Positions 19,249 through 26,037 of a stretch of 50,925 nt of DNA are shown piece after piece (position 1 is the stretch's first letter; each line of letters opens with the position of its first letter). The DNA comes from a virus, in IMG/VR virus record IMGVR_UViG_3300044739_000008, positions 1-50,925 of that record; one strand, written 5' to 3'. The position numbers were made by a program, and so were the translations under genes. The notes beneath the pieces were generated by a model. The model saw only the letters and a program-made list of their open reading frames with translations, made no database searches and was not told the origin of the DNA.

Positions 19249-21129
19249 TCAGGCGGCGAGCGAGCGGAGCCCGCGCTGGCGCAGATCGAGGAGCGAGGAG
19301 TTGGTGATCTTCTTGCCCTCGCCGACCTCGGCGATGTACTCCTGGATCGTCCCCGCCGTCCGGTACGTGTAGACGACGAGGGCTGTGGTGCGCTCGCCCC
19401 GGTCGCCCCGGTCGATCAGCTGCTCTTGGTCGTCGGGGTTCCACGTCTCATCGAGGATGTGAACGCTCCCGGTGATCTCTAGGTTGAGCGAGACGCCGCC
19501 CGTTTGGGTCGTCATCACGATCACTCGCGGCTCCTCGGCGGTCCCGTCCTTGTACCACTCGATGACGGCGTTGCGGTCGGCGCCGGTGACGGTCCCATCG
19601 AGCCTCCTCGCGGCGATCCCGGCCTGGCCCAGGTACTCCTCCACGACCTCAACGAACAGCTGAGAGGCAGACGCGACGATGGCCCTCGTGCGCGGCTCCG
19701 GCTCCTCGACGCGAACACCCTGCTCGGCGAGGCGATCGAGGAGGAGCGGGAGCTTGCCGGAGTCGGTGGTGGGGTAGGGCGAGCCGTCCCGAAGCTCCTG
19801 GCGCGAGTTAGCGAACTGCTTCAGGCGCGTGTACTCGGTGAGGACGTTGGTCGCGGCGATCCGGCCCTCATCAATCGCAAGCTCGGCCTCCTTGGCGAAC
19901 TCGCTGTACTGGGCGCGCTGCTTCGGCGTCATCGGGCACTCGACCAGGTTCCACTGAACCTCGGGGAGTCCGGGGAGGGCTTCGCGCTTCATCCGGCGCA
20001 CCATGATCCGCGCGTGGGCGCGGTAGAACTCGTCCACCACGTCGCCTCGGAGCCCGCCGACGCTCTTGTAGCCCAGATCGTTCTCCGTGATGTGGAGCCA
20101 CTTCTCAGCCCAGGTCCAGAAGCTCGTGTATTCACTCGGCTGGAGCCACTGGAGCGTCGGGAACAGCCGCCTTGGCTTTCCACCCATCGGCGTCCCGCTC
20201 ATCGCTCCGCGCTTCGCCGCGTCGAGCCGCGCGGCTCCTCGGGCGAACAGGGACTTCTGGTTGGGCAGGCCGCTCTTGTGGAACTCGTCTATGAGAACGG
20301 ACTCCCAGGCGATCTTGAAGAGATCGGGGTGGCGCTCGGCGAAGGGGTGCTGGAGCTTCCCTTCGATCATCTTCTTGGGTTGCTCCTTGTCGCGGTAGAG
20401 ACGCACGTCATCGTAGCCGACGACCAGCCAGAAGGGCTCGCCCGCCTCGTCCATCCGCTTCGCCTCGCGGATCGCGTCGGCGCGTCCCTCGGGCGAGTCG
20501 CCCCAGAGCACCGGGTGGTCCGTGTAGCGGGTCAACTCGACCACCCACGGGTCCCAGTGGGCCGTGACGAGGTTGATGATCAGGTGAGAGCCGTTCCACT
20601 CGACCTCCGGCGTCTCGGCGACGGCGCCGATCCACTCCAGCGTCTTGCCGGTCCCCGGCTGATTCGCGTTGAGCGGGTTGCACTGGGCCATCATGGCGAT
20701 GTCGGCGCGCTGGTACGGACGCGGGCTGCGGTCGCGCATCAGCGGGTGGGGCTCGCCGTTCGGGAGCGGCGGGAGCCCGAGCCACGTCTGGGGCTTGCCG
20801 TCGATGACCTCGCAAAGCTCGGGGACGAGCGCCGGAGCGCGCGTCAACTCGGCGTCCTCGGCGACGGCGAGCGAGGCTAGGTTGCGCTCGCGCTGGACCT
20901 GATCCCGGCCCCAGGCGCGGAGCCCGTCACCGAGGACCAGATCGGGGAAGTGCCGCCGAAGCTCGCGCGCCGTCTCTAGATCGAGCGGGCAGCGCCAGAA
21001 GGGACCGCCCTTGTCCTTGCCGATGAAGCGGCGTCCGGCGACGAGCTTGATCTTGGCGACTGCGATCGGATCGTAGGGGAAGTGAACGTCAATCCGGTCC
21101 TGGCGCTCGCTGAGTTCGGCGAAGATCAT
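19249..21129 (-). CDS. SNF2-family DEAD/DEAH-type ATPase (626 aa)
   Basis: Two RecA-like lobes: Walker A NQPGTGKT near residues 156-163, the DEAH-equivalent DEFH near 281, motif III SGTPMGGKPRRL, lobe-2 motif V TQTGGVSLNLE and motif VI QLIDRGDRGERT. About 135 residues precede the ATPase, as in HARP-like/SMARCAL1 phage proteins. It probably remodels replication forks or D-loops. The ATG at 21129 overlaps the upstream stop (TAATG) and sits six bases after a promoter -10 (21136-21164), so it may be made from a leaderless mRNA. Hairpins follow the stop. Confidence 0.9.
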   Translation of the reverse strand: MIFAELSERQDRIDVHFPYDPIAVAKIKLVAGRRFIGKDKGGPFWRCPLDLETARELRRHFPDLVLGDGLRAWGRDQVQRERNLASLAVAEDAELTRAPALVPELCEVIDGKPQTWLGLPPLPNGEPHPLMRDRSPRPYQRADIAMMAQCNPLNANQPGTGKTLEWIGAVAETPEVEWNGSHLIINLVTAHWDPWVVELTRYTDHPVLWGDSPEGRADAIREAKRMDEAGEPFWLVVGYDDVRLYRDKEQPKKMIEGKLQHPFAERHPDLFKIAWESVLIDEFHKSGLPNQKSLFARGAARLDAAKRGAMSGTPMGGKPRRLFPTLQWLQPSEYTSFWTWAEKWLHITENDLGYKSVGGLRGDVVDEFYRAHARIMVRRMKREALPGLPEVQWNLVECPMTPKQRAQYSEFAKEAELAIDEGRIAATNVLTEYTRLKQFANSRQELRDGSPYPTTDSGKLPLLLDRLAEQGVRVEEPEPRTRAIVASASQLFVEVVEEYLGQAGIAARRLDGTVTGADRNAVIEWYKDGTAEEPRVIVMTTQTGGVSLNLEITGSVHILDETWNPDDQEQLIDRGDRGERTTALVVYTYRTAGTIQEYIAEVGEGKKITNSSLLDLRQRGLRSLAA

Positions 21130-21395
21130 TATTCGACCATACCGTCAGATGCCGCCGCCCACAAGAGGAGACCACACAGCCGGTCCTCCGACACGACGAC
21201 ATCCGCCTCAAGCTCGGAGCCCTCGAAGCTCTCAACGCGGAAGGTCCCCTTGCCCTTGGGCCGGTATCTGATGACGCGGAGCCCGCTCTGGAACTCGCGC
21301 GCGCTGGGGTGGCCGGGGACCTTGGCCACCTCAACGCCGAGCGCCCGCGCGTGGCGGGCGACTCGGGTTGCGGGGAGGTTGACGCGACGGCTCAC
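21129..21395 (-). CDS. Hypothetical protein (88 aa), GTG start
   Basis: A beta-rich protein with a basic N-terminus (VNLPATRVARHARALGVEVA) and the segment LRVIRYRPKGKGTFRVESFE; no family recognised. The GTG at 21395 overlaps the previous stop (GTGA). Its last codons double as a promoter-like sequence for the SNF2 gene. Confidence 0.65.
   Translation of the reverse strand: MSRRVNLPATRVARHARALGVEVAKVPGHPSAREFQSGLRVIRYRPKGKGTFRVESFEGSELEADVVVSEDRLCGLLLWAAASDGMVE
21136..21164 (-). promoter_or_regulatory. Promoter P4 (family TTGnnn-N7-CATCTG-N4-TATGRT), SNF2 gene
   Basis: -35 TTGTGG and -10 TATGGT are separated by 17 bases; the spacer holds CATCTG at the same place as in P2 and P3. The SNF2 ATG begins six bases after the -10, so transcription could start at or next to the start codon. 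The element lies inside the end of the preceding gene, so coding constraint could explain part of the match. Confidence 0.55.
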
Positions 21396-21649
21396 GCGAG
21401 CCCGTCGCAGCAGGGGAAGAAGTGGCAGTCGTCGGCGCCTTCGCCGGGGCGCATCGAGCCCTCGGCGATGTGGTCGGCGTAAATCTCGTCGCCAACCTCG
21501 TCGCGGGACGCGGCCTCGATCGTCCAGCCGTGCCGGTACTCCGGCTCACGCTGGGCGTTGCGCTTCAGGTCCGCGCAACCCTCGGCGTGGACGTGGAACG
21601 TACCCTTGCTCTGGTCGTTCAGGTTGGGGCCGCAGATCGTCACCTTCAT
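21392..21649 (-). CDS. Hypothetical protein (85 aa)
   Basis: Begins MKVTICGPNLNDQSKGTFHV and is rich in H and C (HVHAEGCADL, CHFFPCCDG), so metal binding is possible; no family recognised. The ATG at 21649 has a GAGGAG site. An in-frame ATG at 21679, seven bases after the P1 -10, would give an MSSTDPRGAT extension from a leaderless transcript. Confidence 0.7.
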   Translation of the reverse strand: MKVTICGPNLNDQSKGTFHVHAEGCADLKRNAQREPEYRHGWTIEAASRDEVGDEIYADHIAEGSMRPGEGADDCHFFPCCDGLA

Positions 21650-21667
21650 GGTAGCTCCTCTTGGGTC

Positions 21668-21681
21668 GGTTGAACTCATCT
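21668..21681 (-). promoter_or_regulatory. GATGAGTTCAACC leader element, copy 3
   Basis: GATGAGTTCAACC directly downstream of the P1 -10. The ATG inside it is in frame with the gene at 21649. The same 12-mer (last bases A/C variable) occurs near 18832, 19064 and 25229. Confidence 0.6.
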
Positions 21682-21686
21682 AGACG

Positions 21687-21715
21687 ATCATAAGGGCTAA
21701 TGAACGAACGTACAA
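21687..21715 (-). promoter_or_regulatory. Promoter P1
   Basis: -35 TTGTAC (21710-21715), 17-base spacer with CATTAG at the position where P2-P4 carry CATCTG, and -10 TATGAT (21687-21692). It follows directly after the hairpin 21718-21760. The downstream sequence CG...GATGAGTTCAACC matches that of P2. Confidence 0.75.
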
Positions 21716-21717
21716 GT

Positions 21718-21760
21718 GGGAGGGGCGGCGGCCAGCCGGTTGAAGACCGCCACCCCTCCC
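21718..21760 (-). terminator. Hairpin terminator upstream of P1
   Basis: Arms GGGAGGGGCGGCGG (21718-21731) and CCGCCACCCCTCCC (21747-21760) pair over 14 bases with one mismatch around a 15-base loop. It separates the operon ending with the 48-aa gene from promoter P1. No T-tract is present. Confidence 0.65.
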
Positions 21761-21813
21761 TACCTCGGGTCCGGCGAGGGAGACGCCGGTGGGCTCAGCG
21801 CCCGAGGCAAGTG

Positions 21814-21960
21814 TTACCGGCGCCCGCTCCCTTCGCGGAAGCCGTCGCGGAGCGCCTTGCCGAGGACGCCGAGATGCTGCTTGGCCTCCTCCTTGCGGCG
21901 AGCGTTCGTGGTCTCCACGCGCTCCATGAAGCTCGGTTTGTCGGGCTTCCGGCGCTTCAT
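21814..21960 (-). CDS. Small basic protein (48 aa)
   Basis: A very short gene. The ATG at 21960 has AGGGAGG upstream and overlaps the previous stop (ATGA). The product starts MKRRKPDKPSFMERVETTNA and is helical, highly basic and ends GRR. It closes an operon and is followed by a hairpin. Function unknown; nucleic-acid binding is possible from charge alone. Confidence 0.65.
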   Translation of the reverse strand: MKRRKPDKPSFMERVETTNARRKEEAKQHLGVLGKALRDGFREGSGRR

Positions 21961-22463
21961 GCGGCCTCCCTCACGCCCTCACCCGCAACGATCGTCGCGG
22001 CGTAGTGCTCGCCTCGCGGACGGTACACGTAGCCCGCCCGACCGTTCCGGCCTCTGTCCAGCAAGCCCTCCTTGCGGCAGGACGTGATCGCCTTCCAGAG
22101 GAGCGTGTCGCTGAACCGGGAGCCGAAGTGCTGCGGCTCCTTGAGGTCGCCGAACCTGAAGGACTCCGGCGCCTCGCCCTTCTGGATCCAGTCGCGCATC
22201 GTCTGCCACGCGGTGTAGGAGCCCGAGCCCTCCCTTGGGTACGGGTCCGCCAGGACCTCCTCGTCACTCCGGTTGGACGCTCCGGCGCGCGTACCTCGCC
22301 GCTCCGGCGCGTCACCGTTCGAGCTTGGCCGGGTCCTCGGCTGGATCGTGTCGAGGTAGCGCTCAGCCTCCTCGATCTCTCGTTCCAGCGCCCTGATCTC
22401 GATCCGAGCTTCGCGGATGCGAGCCTTCACGCCCTTGGCGAGCGTTGTCTTGAGGTCACTCAT
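21957..22463 (-). CDS. Coiled-coil plus winged-helix-like protein (168 aa)
   Basis: From the ATG at 22463 (GGAGGATGAG site). Residues 10-45 form a charged coiled coil (RIREARIEIRALEREIEEAE); a flexible middle follows, and the C-terminal 70 residues look like a winged helix (WKAITSCRKEGLLDRGRNGR, then a VYRPRG wing). This suggests a DNA-binding regulator that dimerises through the coil. The frame to 22604 is a shadow of the upstream gene. Confidence 0.65.
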   Translation of the reverse strand: MSDLKTTLAKGVKARIREARIEIRALEREIEEAERYLDTIQPRTRPSSNGDAPERRGTRAGASNRSDEEVLADPYPREGSGSYTAWQTMRDWIQKGEAPESFRFGDLKEPQHFGSRFSDTLLWKAITSCRKEGLLDRGRNGRAGYVYRPRGEHYAATIVAGEGVREAA

Positions 22464-22747
22464 TTGCTCATCCTCCTCTTGACCCTCCTGCCGGGTATCC
22501 GGGCGGTCCCGAAGCACCACGGGCAGGAGGCTGTTTCGTAGGTCCGCCCGTTCACCTTGTGCGGGCGCTTCCATCCGACCGAAGCCCAGAAGCTCCGGCC
22601 ACACCGCTTACGCGGGCACGTCACCTTCAACATGGCGCCCTCCTCGGCGCCCTCGAACTCGAACCGCTCGACGGCGAATGCCGGGAGCGCGGAGGGAGGA
22701 GGCATGACCTCCTCCATCCTGGTCTGAAGTGCCGACTCTCTCGGCAT
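22460..22747 (-). CDS. Zinc-ribbon protein (95 aa)
   Basis: Two cysteine pairs, CPRKRC and CPWC, about 27 residues apart with a basic loop (FWASVGWKRPHKVNGR) between them, and an Arg/Lys-rich end (RIPGRRVKRRMSK). It reads as a zinc ribbon for nucleic acid. TGATG and ATGA overlaps couple it to both neighbours. Confidence 0.7.
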   Translation of the reverse strand: MPRESALQTRMEEVMPPPSALPAFAVERFEFEGAEEGAMLKVTCPRKRCGRSFWASVGWKRPHKVNGRTYETASCPWCFGTARIPGRRVKRRMSK

Positions 22748-23091
22748 CAGAACGTCACGAGGTTGATTGACACGCTCGTCCCGTACTCGGGCTCGAACGG
22801 TAGGTTGGCGTCCTGAAGGAGCCCGCTGATCTCATCGACCTCGATCATCTCAACCCACTGACGCGACTCCCACACGACCTCGGCGGGCCACCGCTCGGGA
22901 TCGCTCCCCGGTCGGTGGCAGTTGATTCGATTGCCCATGATGTCCGTCGCCGACCGCTTGTCCGGCCACTGGCCGTCGAAGCGAGCCTTGATGTAGCCTC
23001 GGACGATCCTGAATGCGGCGGTTAGCTCCGCGTTCGGGTACGGGCGCGGCTGCGGGTCCGGCGTCGAGAGGCGCCGTCGCACCGGCGTCAT
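22747..23091 (-). CDS. Hypothetical protein (114 aa)
   Basis: Not recognised. A Pro/Arg-rich N-terminus is followed by a helix (AAFRIVRGYIKARFDGQWPD) and an acidic C-terminal half. It lies inside a coupled early operon (23435 to 21814). The start overlaps the upstream TGA as ATGA. Confidence 0.65.
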   Translation of the reverse strand: MTPVRRRLSTPDPQPRPYPNAELTAAFRIVRGYIKARFDGQWPDKRSATDIMGNRINCHRPGSDPERWPAEVVWESRQWVEMIEVDEISGLLQDANLPFEPEYGTSVSINLVTF

Positions 23092-23435
23092 CGAACTAGC
23101 TCCACGTGCGGACGAGCGTAGTAGCGGTCGATGTAGACCGCCACGGCTTCCCGCTGCGTCCGGCAGATGGCTAGCTCGGGCGCCAGGATCGTCGGGCGGT
23201 GCGTGAAGCCGTCCGCCTCCCGAACCTCGGTGCCCTCCTTAGCTCGCTCGAACCGCAACACGTACTTGCTGCGGAAGCTCGCCGAGTCGCAGTTCAGTCC
23301 GTGCGTCTCGATCACAGCAACCTCGCGCTCGTCCTTCACGAGGGCGATGCCCCAGACGGGCGGCCAGCTGCCTACGTAGTAGCGCTCGATCGTGATGCCG
23401 ATCTTCCCGAGCGCTTCCTGGTGTCTCTTGTTCAT
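23088..23435 (-). CDS. Hypothetical protein (115 aa)
   Basis: First gene of the small-gene operon. Alternating strands (IGITIERYYVGSWPPVWGIA) and a final helix suggest a small mixed alpha/beta fold of unknown role. The leader before the ATG (CCAACGAGAGGATGAG) closely resembles the leader of the DUF2786 gene, so the two may share control. Confidence 0.65.
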   Translation of the reverse strand: MNKRHQEALGKIGITIERYYVGSWPPVWGIALVKDEREVAVIETHGLNCDSASFRSKYVLRFERAKEGTEVREADGFTHRPTILAPELAICRTQREAVAVYIDRYYARPHVELVR

Positions 23436-23492
23436 CTCGTGCTCATCCTCTCGTTGGTCCTCTGGTTGTACACTTCGGGCGGGTGGACCGTA

Positions 23493-23529
23493 CCCCAGCC
23501 CTCTCGCGGACCGGCGCGGAGGGCTGGGG
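23493..23529 (-). terminator. Hairpin after the DUF2786 gene
   Basis: Perfect 11-bp arms CCCCAGCCCTC and GAGGGCTGGGG around a 15-base GC-rich loop, lying between the DUF2786 stop (23546) and the next start (23435). A likely terminator; the rest of the 110-bp gap shows no clear promoter. Confidence 0.65.
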
Positions 23530-23545
23530 AGACGGTGGGGAGACT

Positions 23546-24571
23546 CTAACCCCTTTCGATCTCCCGGCGCGCTCCCACGCGACGGCTCGGGGACGTGCCC
23601 AGGTCCGCGCGGGCGCCCGCTGCGCTCCCGGCGTAGTAGGCGGACATGTCGGTCGCAAGCTCGCGGGAGACGGCGCCGCCGCCCTTCGACTTCTTGCCGT
23701 CATCCTCGGGCGGCGGAAACATCTCCTGGTACATGTCGTCGGCGACCTGGCGGATGTCCCGGAGCGCGAGCGCGGCGGGGTTGTCGCCGGTGCCCTCGGC
23801 GCGAGCGCGCAGCTGGCGCATCCGCTTGCGGACCTCCGAGACGAAGCCCATCGCGTAGGAGCGCTGGAACACGCCGGGGTGAACGTAGTTGCGCTCCAGC
23901 CCGTTGTCTCTCGCGTGCTTCCGGTTCAGCTGGGCGAGCCGGTTCTTGATCACCTTCCAGTACGCCTCGGGGAGCCGGTCGAACGGCGTGGCCGCCTCGA
24001 TCGTCTCGCCGTCCCGGCTCATGTGCTCGCCGCGCGACGGCTTGACCATCCCGGCCTCCCAGAGGAGCTTGGTGATCCGCTCCCAGTTCATCCCGGCCAT
24101 CCGCATGTCGTAGACGTTCTCCGCGAGCGTCTTGTCGGCGGTCGGCTGACGCTCAAGCTCGCGCCCCATCTGGAGCATGAGGCTCGTGAACATCAGGTCG
24201 AAGTAGTCCAGGTCACTCGGGAGCCCGATCAGCGGCATCTGCGAGTAGCCGCCCGGACCGGAGCCCTGGCCCCGGTACGCGACGACGCAGCGGCAGTGCC
24301 GCGCGCACGCGGTGAACAAGCCCCAAAGCTCGTCGCCGCGCGAGTGCCCCCACCACCAATTGATATCGACGTAGCGCGCCTCCGGCTTCGGGCGGGCCGT
24401 GACGCCGTCCTGGGCCTGATCGACCTGCCACTGCTCGATCGCGTAGGCGGTCATCAACTCGTCCGCCTTCGCCCGGAAGGTCTCAGCCTCCTCGGGGAAG
24501 TTCGTGCTGTCGGCCTTCGCTAGGAGCGCTCGCACCCGCTCCAGCATCTTCGCGTTCCGGTCCTCGTTCAT
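23546..24571 (-). CDS. DUF2786-domain protein (341 aa)
   Basis: The N-terminal 45 residues (KMLERVRALLAKADSTNFPE, then EAETFRAKADELM) are the DUF2786 signature, found in phage and bacterial proteins of unknown function. The middle holds a cysteine/histidine patch (ACARHCRCVVAYRG) and a DYFDLMFTSLMLQM helix. The C-terminus is basic and rich in Ala/Arg. The ATG at 24571 is nine bases after GAGGAGG; the ATG at 24580 is an alternative. Confidence 0.8.
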   Translation of the reverse strand: MNEDRNAKMLERVRALLAKADSTNFPEEAETFRAKADELMTAYAIEQWQVDQAQDGVTARPKPEARYVDINWWWGHSRGDELWGLFTACARHCRCVVAYRGQGSGPGGYSQMPLIGLPSDLDYFDLMFTSLMLQMGRELERQPTADKTLAENVYDMRMAGMNWERITKLLWEAGMVKPSRGEHMSRDGETIEAATPFDRLPEAYWKVIKNRLAQLNRKHARDNGLERNYVHPGVFQRSYAMGFVSEVRKRMRQLRARAEGTGDNPAALALRDIRQVADDMYQEMFPPPEDDGKKSKGGGAVSRELATDMSAYYAGSAAGARADLGTSPSRRVGARREIERG

Positions 24572-24599
24572 CTCGTTCATCCTCCTCGTTGGTCTCGTG

Positions 24600-25202
24600 T
24601 TACCAGCCACGCTCGCCGCGACAGACCGGCCCGATGCCGACCGCGCGACTTGTCTCGTCCGTGAGCGTCCGTCCGCACACGCCGCACTCGCCTAGCTCGA
24701 CGCCGTAGCGCATCGTCGCCGCCTTCGGGTCCTCGGCGATCTGCTCCAGGATCGAGCGCTTCAGGTCCGGGCGCTTGATCGCTCCCTCGGCGGGCTCGCC
24801 GTGCGGTCCGCCTCGGAGGCTCTTGAGGAACGTGAAGCCCTCCCACCGGCCCTTGTCGGGGCGATCGACCTTGTAGAACTTCAGCACGCCGTCGCGCTCG
24901 ATCGCGTAACGGCCCTCGGGGACCTCGGGCCACTCGCCCGGACCCTGGCGCAGCTTCGCGTCGAGCACTCGGGTCGGCTCATCGACGCGGTGGGGCTGCG
25001 CCTTGAGCCGCGTGATGAAGTCCGAGGCGCGGAACTTGCTGATGTCGCCCGAGGCGATCCGAGCGTTCATCGCCTCGCGGGCGGCGTCGGGGACCTGCCG
25101 CTGCTTCAGCAGATCGGCGAGGTAGGACAGCTGCCGCTCGGTGGCGGGCGGTCCGCCTTCGCTCGCGGGCGGCGGGGTGGTGGGGTACTCGTTGCGGGGC
25201 AT
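24600..25202 (-). CDS. DUF6011-like protein with C-terminal zinc ribbon (200 aa)
   Basis: The C-terminal end CGVCGRTLTDETSRAVGIGP followed by VCRGE is the conserved end of DUF6011-type phage proteins and holds three to four zinc-ligand cysteines. The N-terminal part contains a helical ATERQLSYLADLLKQR segment, and the middle a YAIERDGVLKFYKVDRP strand pair. The ATG at 25202 has GAGGAG; the in-frame ATG at 25229, seven bases after the P2 -10, could give a leaderless MSSTTRGAG-extended form. Confidence 0.75.
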   Translation of the reverse strand: MPRNEYPTTPPPASEGGPPATERQLSYLADLLKQRQVPDAAREAMNARIASGDISKFRASDFITRLKAQPHRVDEPTRVLDAKLRQGPGEWPEVPEGRYAIERDGVLKFYKVDRPDKGRWEGFTFLKSLRGGPHGEPAEGAIKRPDLKRSILEQIAEDPKAATMRYGVELGECGVCGRTLTDETSRAVGIGPVCRGERGW

Positions 25203-25217
25203 ACCGGCTCCTCTGGT

Positions 25218-25230
25218 GGTTGAACTCATC
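25218..25230 (-). promoter_or_regulatory. GATGAGTTCAACC leader element, copy 4
   Basis: Same 13 bases as at the P1 gene, again immediately downstream of the promoter and in frame with the gene. Conservation of this leader in two operons suggests a shared control or start function. Confidence 0.6.
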
Positions 25231-25236
25231 GGGTCG

Positions 25237-25265
25237 ATCATAACGCCAGATGCCCCGCCGTTCAA
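25237..25265 (-). promoter_or_regulatory. Promoter P2
   Basis: -35 TTGAAC (25260-25265), 17-base spacer with CATCTG, and -10 TATGAT (25237-25242). The -35 lies inside the hairpin 25252-25286, so terminator and promoter are fused. Confidence 0.78.
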
Positions 25266-25286
25266 CTCCCTCGTGAACGGCGGGGC
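25252..25286 (-). terminator. Perfect hairpin overlapping promoter P2
   Basis: Thirteen-base perfect arms GCCCCGCCGTTCA (25252-25264) and TGAACGGCGGGGC (25274-25286) with a 9-base loop. It starts ten bases after the preceding stop (25297) and ends inside the P2 spacer. Confidence 0.7.
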
Positions 25287-25296
25287 GGGCGGCTGG

Positions 25297-25494
25297 CTAC
25301 TTGATCCCTACGATGTCGCCTTCGGCGACGGTGCGGCAGCCGCCCTCGGCGGCGATGAATTGGATCAACGGCTTCTGTCGGTTCCCGCCCGGAGCGCCAG
25401 CGGGGAGGTAGCGGCGGAAGTGCGTGACGCGGTGCGTGTCTTCGAGGATGGTGTACTTCCCCTCGCCGATCCGTACCTTGCTCATCGTCTCCAT
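25297..25494 (-). CDS. Hypothetical protein (65 aa or longer)
   Basis: From the ATG at 25494 (GAAGG site) the product begins METMSKVRIGEGKYTILEDT and ends VAEGDIVGIK, a small beta-rich protein. The same frame stays open and protein-like back to 25622 (LFDEHTLPEDRAALIEGK), but I find no ATG, GTG or TTG with a ribosome site there, so the true start is unclear. It follows the HTH gene. Function unknown. Confidence 0.55.
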   Translation of the reverse strand: METMSKVRIGEGKYTILEDTHRVTHFRRYLPAGAPGGNRQKPLIQFIAAEGGCRTVAEGDIVGIK

Positions 25495-25622
25495 CCGCTT
25501 GCCTTCTATCAGAGCCGCGCGGTCCTCGGGGAGCGTGTGCTCATCGAACAACAGAGCGAGCGCGGTGGCGAGTCCTTCCGCCTCCCGCGCTCGCTTGCTT
25601 CCCGAGCGATGCTGGGCTCCGC

Positions 25623-25955
25623 TTACTGAGGGTCCGAAGCGGTCTTGACGCGGACCGTGCGCTTGGCCTTGCCGGCCTTCGACGTGGACGTGGTGCCCTT
25701 GGCCTTCGCGCTCGACGCCTTCTTGGCGGCGGGCTTCGGGCCGGAGCCGTTGCGGACGATCGCCTTGGTGGTCTCGCCGGGCTTGACGCCTCCGGCGTTG
25801 AGACCGGCCTCCGCCATGATCGCGGTCATCGGTCCCGAGCCGAGCTTGACGCCCAGCGCCTCGCGGACCTCGTTCCACGTCTTGCCCTGCTTGCGCAGCT
25901 TGGCGATGGCCGTGGCGCTCGGGCGCTTCGGGGCGGTCTTGGTCTGTGCGGGCAT
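25623..25955 (-). CDS. HTH protein with histone H1-like basic tail (110 aa)
   Basis: The N-terminal half (TAIAKLRKQGKTWNEVREAL, then GVKLGSGPMTAIMAEAG) has the spacing of a helix-turn-helix. The C-terminal half is a low-complexity Lys/Ala/Ser tail (PAAKKASSAKAKGTT and SKAGKAKR), as in histone H1-like bacterial and phage nucleoid proteins. The ATG at 25955 has GGAGGTAG, and promoter P3 lies 54 bases upstream. It is the first gene of its operon, so an early DNA-binding regulator or nucleoid protein is a good guess. Confidence 0.72.
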   Translation of the reverse strand: MPAQTKTAPKRPSATAIAKLRKQGKTWNEVREALGVKLGSGPMTAIMAEAGLNAGGVKPGETTKAIVRNGSGPKPAAKKASSAKAKGTTSTSKAGKAKRTVRVKTASDPQ

Positions 25956-26008
25956 TTCAGCTACCTCCGGTGTCTCGCGGAGGGCCATTCCCTCCGTCGC
26001 TTCGGCGA

Positions 26009-26037
26009 ACCATACTACCAGATGAACCGGAGCACAA
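26009..26037 (-). promoter_or_regulatory. Promoter P3
   Basis: -35 TTGTGC (26032-26037), 17-base spacer with CATCTG, and -10 TATGGT (26009-26014), in the intergenic gap before the HTH gene. Unlike P1, P2 and P4 it has a conventional leader with a ribosome site. Confidence 0.75.

Follow-up and report, generated by a model that had tools for sequence, protein, structure and literature searches.

What is the function of a six-base block, CATCTG, that recurs at one fixed place within the spacer of four early phage promoters? The question is raised by an uncultured, actinophage-like virus, IMG/VR record IMGVR_UViG_3300044739_000008 (50,925 bases, 66% GC, classed as linear and possibly a fragment), the whole of which was analysed here and is referred to as the window. 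The promoters, P1 to P4, were pointed out in a sequence-only reading of this DNA, which took the block for the binding site of an activator or repressor. The four-site observation is real and non-random. Our preferred answer, with a probability of roughly 0.5, is that P1–P4 would be host sigma-A promoters in which CATCTG serves as the phage-specific site of a trans-acting factor. Most likely a product of the phage itself, this factor would tune the early set as a whole or switch it off.

All four promoters read TTGnnn-N7-CAT(C/T)(T/A)G-N4-TATGRT with a 17-base spacer: P1 (21,687–21,715; TTGTAC GTTCGTT CATTAG CCCT TATGAT), upstream of the open reading frame (ORF) at 21,392–21,649; P2 (25,237–25,265; TTGAAC GGCGGGG CATCTG GCGT TATGAT), upstream of a DUF6011 gene; P3 (26,009–26,037; TTGTGC TCCGGTT CATCTG GTAG TATGGT), upstream of a gene for a helix-turn-helix (HTH) protein (25,623–25,955); and P4 (21,136–21,164; TTGTGG GCGGCGG CATCTG ACGG TATGGT), in the 3′ end of ORF 21,129–21,395. 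Positions, pattern and spacer are exactly those first reported; the wording then used implied that only P4 is on the minus strand, whereas all four are, this being the coding strand of the entire early region. A scan of the 50,925 bases for TTG-N20-TANNNT, which uses no spacer information, returned four minus-strand matches, P1–P4, and none on the plus strand; first-order shuffles predict about 0.4 per strand (about 0 for TTG-N20-TATGRT). With CATNNG included and up to two mismatches allowed, P1–P4 were again the only sites in the genome (0.29 expected). Among four random 20-mers, an identical hexamer at one and the same offset in three of them has a chance of 4.5e-5, and three consecutive columns identical in all four a chance of 3.5e-4.

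Assignment of the sites as sigma-A/sigma-70-type promoters is strong in silico: each has a TANNNT -10, a TTG -35 and a spacer within 16–18 nt, and P2 was also recovered by a consensus promoter scan. Numbering the -10 hexamer as -12 to -7 places the CATNNG block at -22 to -17 (centre near -19.5), a position that rules out CATCTG as an extended -10; no TGn adjoins the -10 at any of P1–P4, where the final spacer bases are CCCT, GCGT, GTAG and ACGG. No TTG-N20-TANNNT promoter precedes any late gene in the late region (26,048–50,902), in agreement with the sequence-only reading, so late promoters are either of another type or outside the record. The same reading had all four sites heading early operons; their early-region location holds, but P4 lies entirely within the last codons of ORF 21,129–21,395 and is therefore an internal promoter.

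Related loci were collected by a helicase search (30 phage loci) and a later profile search (76 distinct loci, mostly new), and repeated elements were sought in them free of any motif, by comparing the surroundings of TANNNT within each genome and refining with a position weight matrix. The CAT(C/T)(T/A)G-N4-TATGRT core was found in 0 of about 80 related loci, and a scan of a viral collection with the full motif gave at least 120 matches against 111 for a scrambled control, without clear excess; the matches listed were mostly single sites on AT-rich contigs, and multiple sites were seen on none of the high-GC contigs among them. The block is thus so far unique to the window phage as a promoter element that recurs. 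The sequence-only reading had looked to relatives for conservation of CATCTG, and by that measure its absence counts against a conserved element; given the elements that stand in its place in relatives, we read it as lineage-specific turnover and not as refutation. What survives of the earlier proposal is a non-random spacer block that is a plausible binding site.

Five relatives (L004, L005, L006, L007 and L023) share the early gene order of the window, with helicases 46–48% identical to its own. When window genes were mapped onto them, the DUF6011 gene was immediately preceded by a promoter in each, and a second promoter lay before the helicase or within about 450 nt of it, as in the window. 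The elements at these promoters are other ones: GCGTAACC-N17-TATACT (GTAACC..TATACT) in L004, L007 and L023, and ATCAACGAAAGTTGTCA..TACGAT in L006, while in L005 a common leader motif accompanies four TTG-N17-TANNNT sites, a family that rests on pattern and position because its pairwise score alone did not rise above that of the opposite strand. Three of these four element families (window, L004/L007/L023 and L006) are clearly conserved within a genome and different between genomes. Among L004, L007 and L023, whose helicase DNA is 87–88% identical, one element is kept at orthologous sites and lost in one L007 copy. Elsewhere, repeated promoter elements were TTTAGGTT-N3-TTTATGA..TAGACT in L013, L016 and L017, AGAACT.. 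in L029, and TTGACACTTCACAGTC..TAATGT in L034 and L036. In the five closest syntenic relatives, then, elements are repeated within a genome and replaced between genomes: with promoters at matching places but different elements in them, positions appear to have been kept and elements exchanged. This turnover at fixed positions is a stronger point than the motif itself, and it fits the pattern expected if a regulator encoded by the phage and the sites that it binds evolve together.

Several of these loci hold features of their own. The L034 and L036 sites (L034: 2258, 6902, 7515, 9999; L036: 2165, 4469) have a conserved block right after a canonical -35, a close parallel to the block in the window. 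Perfect inverted repeats of 5–9 bp with a 3-nt loop lie directly past a -10-like hexamer, about the expected transcription start, in L004, L007, L023 and L006 (e.g. L004: 6774–6795, L007: 7156–7177, L023: 9559–9580; L006: 6615, 9614, 3866). Both arms vary between orthologous copies (CGCAC-GTA-GTGCG, CCAAC-GGA-GTTGG, CACAC-GTA-GTGTG), and these paired changes look like selection for a hairpin. A start-centred palindrome was discarded as a shared feature, being strong in those four loci but short of significance in the window. In L012 and L014, several genes have a GAAGGAGGG ribosome site immediately preceded by a repeated double hairpin (GAGTCT..AGGCTC, followed by another stem); these repeats match both strands, look like hairpins (RNA elements or terminators) and were not retained as promoters. 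Both loci come from IMGVR_UViG_3300046533_000294 (129,757 bases), whose two helicase loci, separated by about 65 kb, may reflect two joined phage genomes.

In the preferred model, the main host RNA polymerase (sigma-A/sigma-70-type) would read P1–P4 through the TTG -35, the TATGRT -10 and the 17-base spacer, and a trans-acting factor occupying the CATCTG block at -22 to -17 would tune the early promoters as a unit or shut them off. Recognition by a regulator is suggested by the repetition of the block within the genome combined with replacement of the whole set of elements in relatives, and the intact -35 and -10 favour modulation or shut-off over strict dependence on an activator. The candidate block-binding factor is the small Lys/Ala-rich HTH protein made from P3 (25,623–25,955, minus strand), as a plausible guess the best regulator candidate in the window genome. 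Each of the six closest relatives found (L004–L007, L023 and L033) has an ortholog, 24–34% identical to it, at the corresponding syntenic position. Its AlphaFold model has three helices at residues 25–60, with a predicted local distance difference test (pLDDT) score of about 70–77 in the core; a fold search was dropped, the overall pLDDT of 56 being too weak. The third helix is near-identical in sequence in L004, L007 and L023, which share one element, and differs where elements differ, a match that is suggestive but confounded by ancestry. The first early promoter of five relatives heads a regulator with a winged helix and a C-terminal HTH (MarR/TrmB-like; L004: 4257–4784, L005: 5619–6140, L006: 3939–4397, L007: 4852–5364, L023: 4688–5200).

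Several observations weigh against joint control through the block. The winged-helix regulator of the relatives was searched for in the window and is absent. The P1 block reads CATTAG, unlike the CATCTG of the other three, and the sites contain no symmetric operator apart from a weak CAT-N8-ATG. The CATCTG promoter set occurs in no other phage examined, so conservation offers no test of its function. Across the wider family of 83 loci, the coding strand showed no excess of repeated promoters over the opposite strand (p=0.45), and repeated coding-strand promoters consequently fail as a general rule among relatives.

Other explanations of the block have to be set against the same evidence. The spacer from -22 to -17 is a region where RNA polymerase contacts DNA, and the block falls within it; it might therefore express a preference of the host polymerase itself (spacer contacts by sigma region 3 or the beta′ zipper, or DNA shape) with no separate regulator. 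Intact -35 and -10 hexamers, which make an activator unnecessary, would agree with this, and different hosts of related phages would also account for different elements. We consider it unlikely all the same, because the elements of relatives are long (e.g. ATCAACGAAAGTTGTCA and TTTAGGTT-N3-TTTATGA) and some replace the -35, and because the viral-collection scan yielded, among the matches listed, no clear excess over a scrambled spacer. An operator for a lysogeny-type repressor, which would make the sites stoperator-like and P1–P4 repressor-controlled early lytic promoters, could explain repeated asymmetric sites in a single orientation within early promoters, and motifs of this kind do vary, those of cluster A differing between subclusters together with their repressors (PMC6550527). 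No integrase or repressor was recognised among the genes scanned (not every ORF was), the sites are found at promoters alone and there is no clear L5-type stoperator set, all of which renders this reading improbable.

Recent duplication of promoter modules, with no selection on the block, would find its best case in P1 and P2, which are 73% identical over 48 nt, leader included. P3 and P4, by contrast, have just promoter letters in common, P4 is embedded in coding sequence, and the variable parts of the spacer have diverged between sites while CAT..G has been kept, so that duplication is a very unlikely explanation of the four-site likeness. Coincidence between otherwise ordinary promoters could draw on there being four sites only, one of them CATTAG; set against odds of about 4.5e-5 for the hexamer match, at sites picked without spacer information, it is scarcely credible. 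The preferred reading, a phage-specific site for a trans-acting factor, can also be given a narrower form: a phage-encoded HTH factor, itself expressed from the first early promoter, would read the block and redirect or gate the sigma-A polymerase of the host on the early set, and across this phage group its specificity and all of its promoter sites would be replaced in concert, with promoter positions fixed. We offer this version tentatively and regard it as doubtful in its full extent; if true, the concerted replacement would amount to a set of phage transcription switches re-specified in nature. The data suggest a viral switch that changes fast, and other actinobacterial viruses have already given hints of switches of this kind.

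The promoters also bear on how the first genes behind them may be translated. An ATG lies 7 bases past the -10 at P1 and P2 and 6 bases past it at P4, as noted before, and the sequence-only reading predicted leaderless mRNAs in all three cases; leaderless transcripts are described as common in mycobacteria (PMC4633059, PMC3898074). The prediction is fair for P4 and the DNA helicase gene (19,249–21,129, minus strand), whose ATG overlaps the upstream stop codon (TAATG), has no Shine-Dalgarno sequence before it and is backed as the true start by alignment with relatives (MIFAELSE vs KIFAELNE). Based on these features and the 6-nt distance, helicase mRNA from P4 is probably leaderless or near-leaderless; the gene may also be expressed by read-through from P1 with stop-start coupling at TAATG. 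At P1 and P2 the prediction holds less well. Both share the leader element GATGAGTTCAACC (minus strand; P1 copy, 21,668–21,680; P2 copy, 25,218–25,230), which contains an upstream ATG; a second ATG in the same frame, with a good Shine-Dalgarno sequence before it, follows 10 (P1) or 9 (P2) codons downstream. Their mRNAs are probably translated chiefly from the second ATG, leaderless initiation being only an option. P3 has a normal leader of about 50 nt, with two Shine-Dalgarno/ATG options before the HTH gene.

The first gene downstream of P1 has no assigned function (21,392–21,649, minus strand) and that downstream of P2 is the DUF6011 gene (phrog_636; 24,600–25,202, minus strand). Each of these two promoters is associated with a very stable, GC-rich, terminator-like minus-strand hairpin without a U tract, one just upstream of P1 (21,715–21,765; z -4.31) and one at P2 (25,245–25,290; z -3.85), the latter holding the P2 -35 in its 3′ arm, so that upstream transcription and use of P2 may interfere. 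Recognised genes of the window are almost all on the minus strand: the early/replication block includes helicase, exonuclease, Sak4-like annealing protein, SSB-like protein, primase/helicase, DnaE-type polymerase and ThyX genes, and the right side carries endolysin, portal, maturation protease, tail sheath, tape measure and baseplate genes. The top matches of the encoded proteins among isolates are actinobacterial phages, and these gene relatives point to an actinobacterial host. Phage records searched by DNA contained zero close relatives of the window, and among bacterial genomes with its helicase family, searched to name the host, none was confirmed.

Among known systems, the window is best placed in a loosely defined group, the early promoter/operator elements of actinobacteriophages that are specific to a phage, and by its sites it falls outside the stoperator, start-associated sequence (SAS) and MotA systems. 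The extended SAS (ESAS) of cluster K mycobacteriophages are similar in being repeated just upstream of genes, with orthologous positions kept and a consensus that varies by subcluster (PMC3203893), and the differing consensus has been read as reflecting DNA-binding proteins of different specificity, the elements possibly being promoters (PMC3203893). An ESAS is, however, an imperfect inverted repeat of 17 bp that goes with a 13-bp SAS located at the ribosome site, while the window has a 6-bp asymmetric block in a promoter spacer; the cluster K SAS (13-bp GGGATAGGAGCCC at start codons) is not enriched in the window (28 vs 22.6 expected). Cluster A stoperators and operators are likewise asymmetric, oriented with transcription, phage-specific and variable with the cognate repressor (PMC6550527, PMC9283540), but they are many and mostly outside promoters, whereas the window has four sites, all in promoters, and no repressor among the genes scanned. 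Sites resembling the 13-bp GGTGGMTGTCAAG stoperator numbered 37 at up to three mismatches in the window against 23 expected, the best with two mismatches. T4 middle promoters, which work by sigma appropriation through a MotA box (PMC6755090), also combine a phage-specific box with a good -10 and serve replication genes; there the box replaces the -35 at about -30, whereas the window keeps TTG and has its block at -22 to -17, and L006 comes closer than the window to the MotA-type geometry.

Repeated intergenic motifs are also reported from Microbacterium phages of clusters EC, EG, EI and EF (PMC7302621) and from the Gordonia cluster DR phage CaiB (PMC9302106). They resemble the sites described here as short cluster-specific repeats in gaps upstream of genes, several of these phages being without repressor or integrase, and differ in having other sequences and in that the papers do not describe them as lying within a -35/-10 spacer. 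Such cluster-specific repeats near early actinobacteriophage genes have been noted for years without an assigned function. To these the window adds a fixed position relative to -35 and -10, a motif that is swapped in the closest syntenic relatives and an adjacent small HTH gene: a concrete pairing of site and candidate regulator that, if correct, would provide promoter parts for high-GC bacteria.

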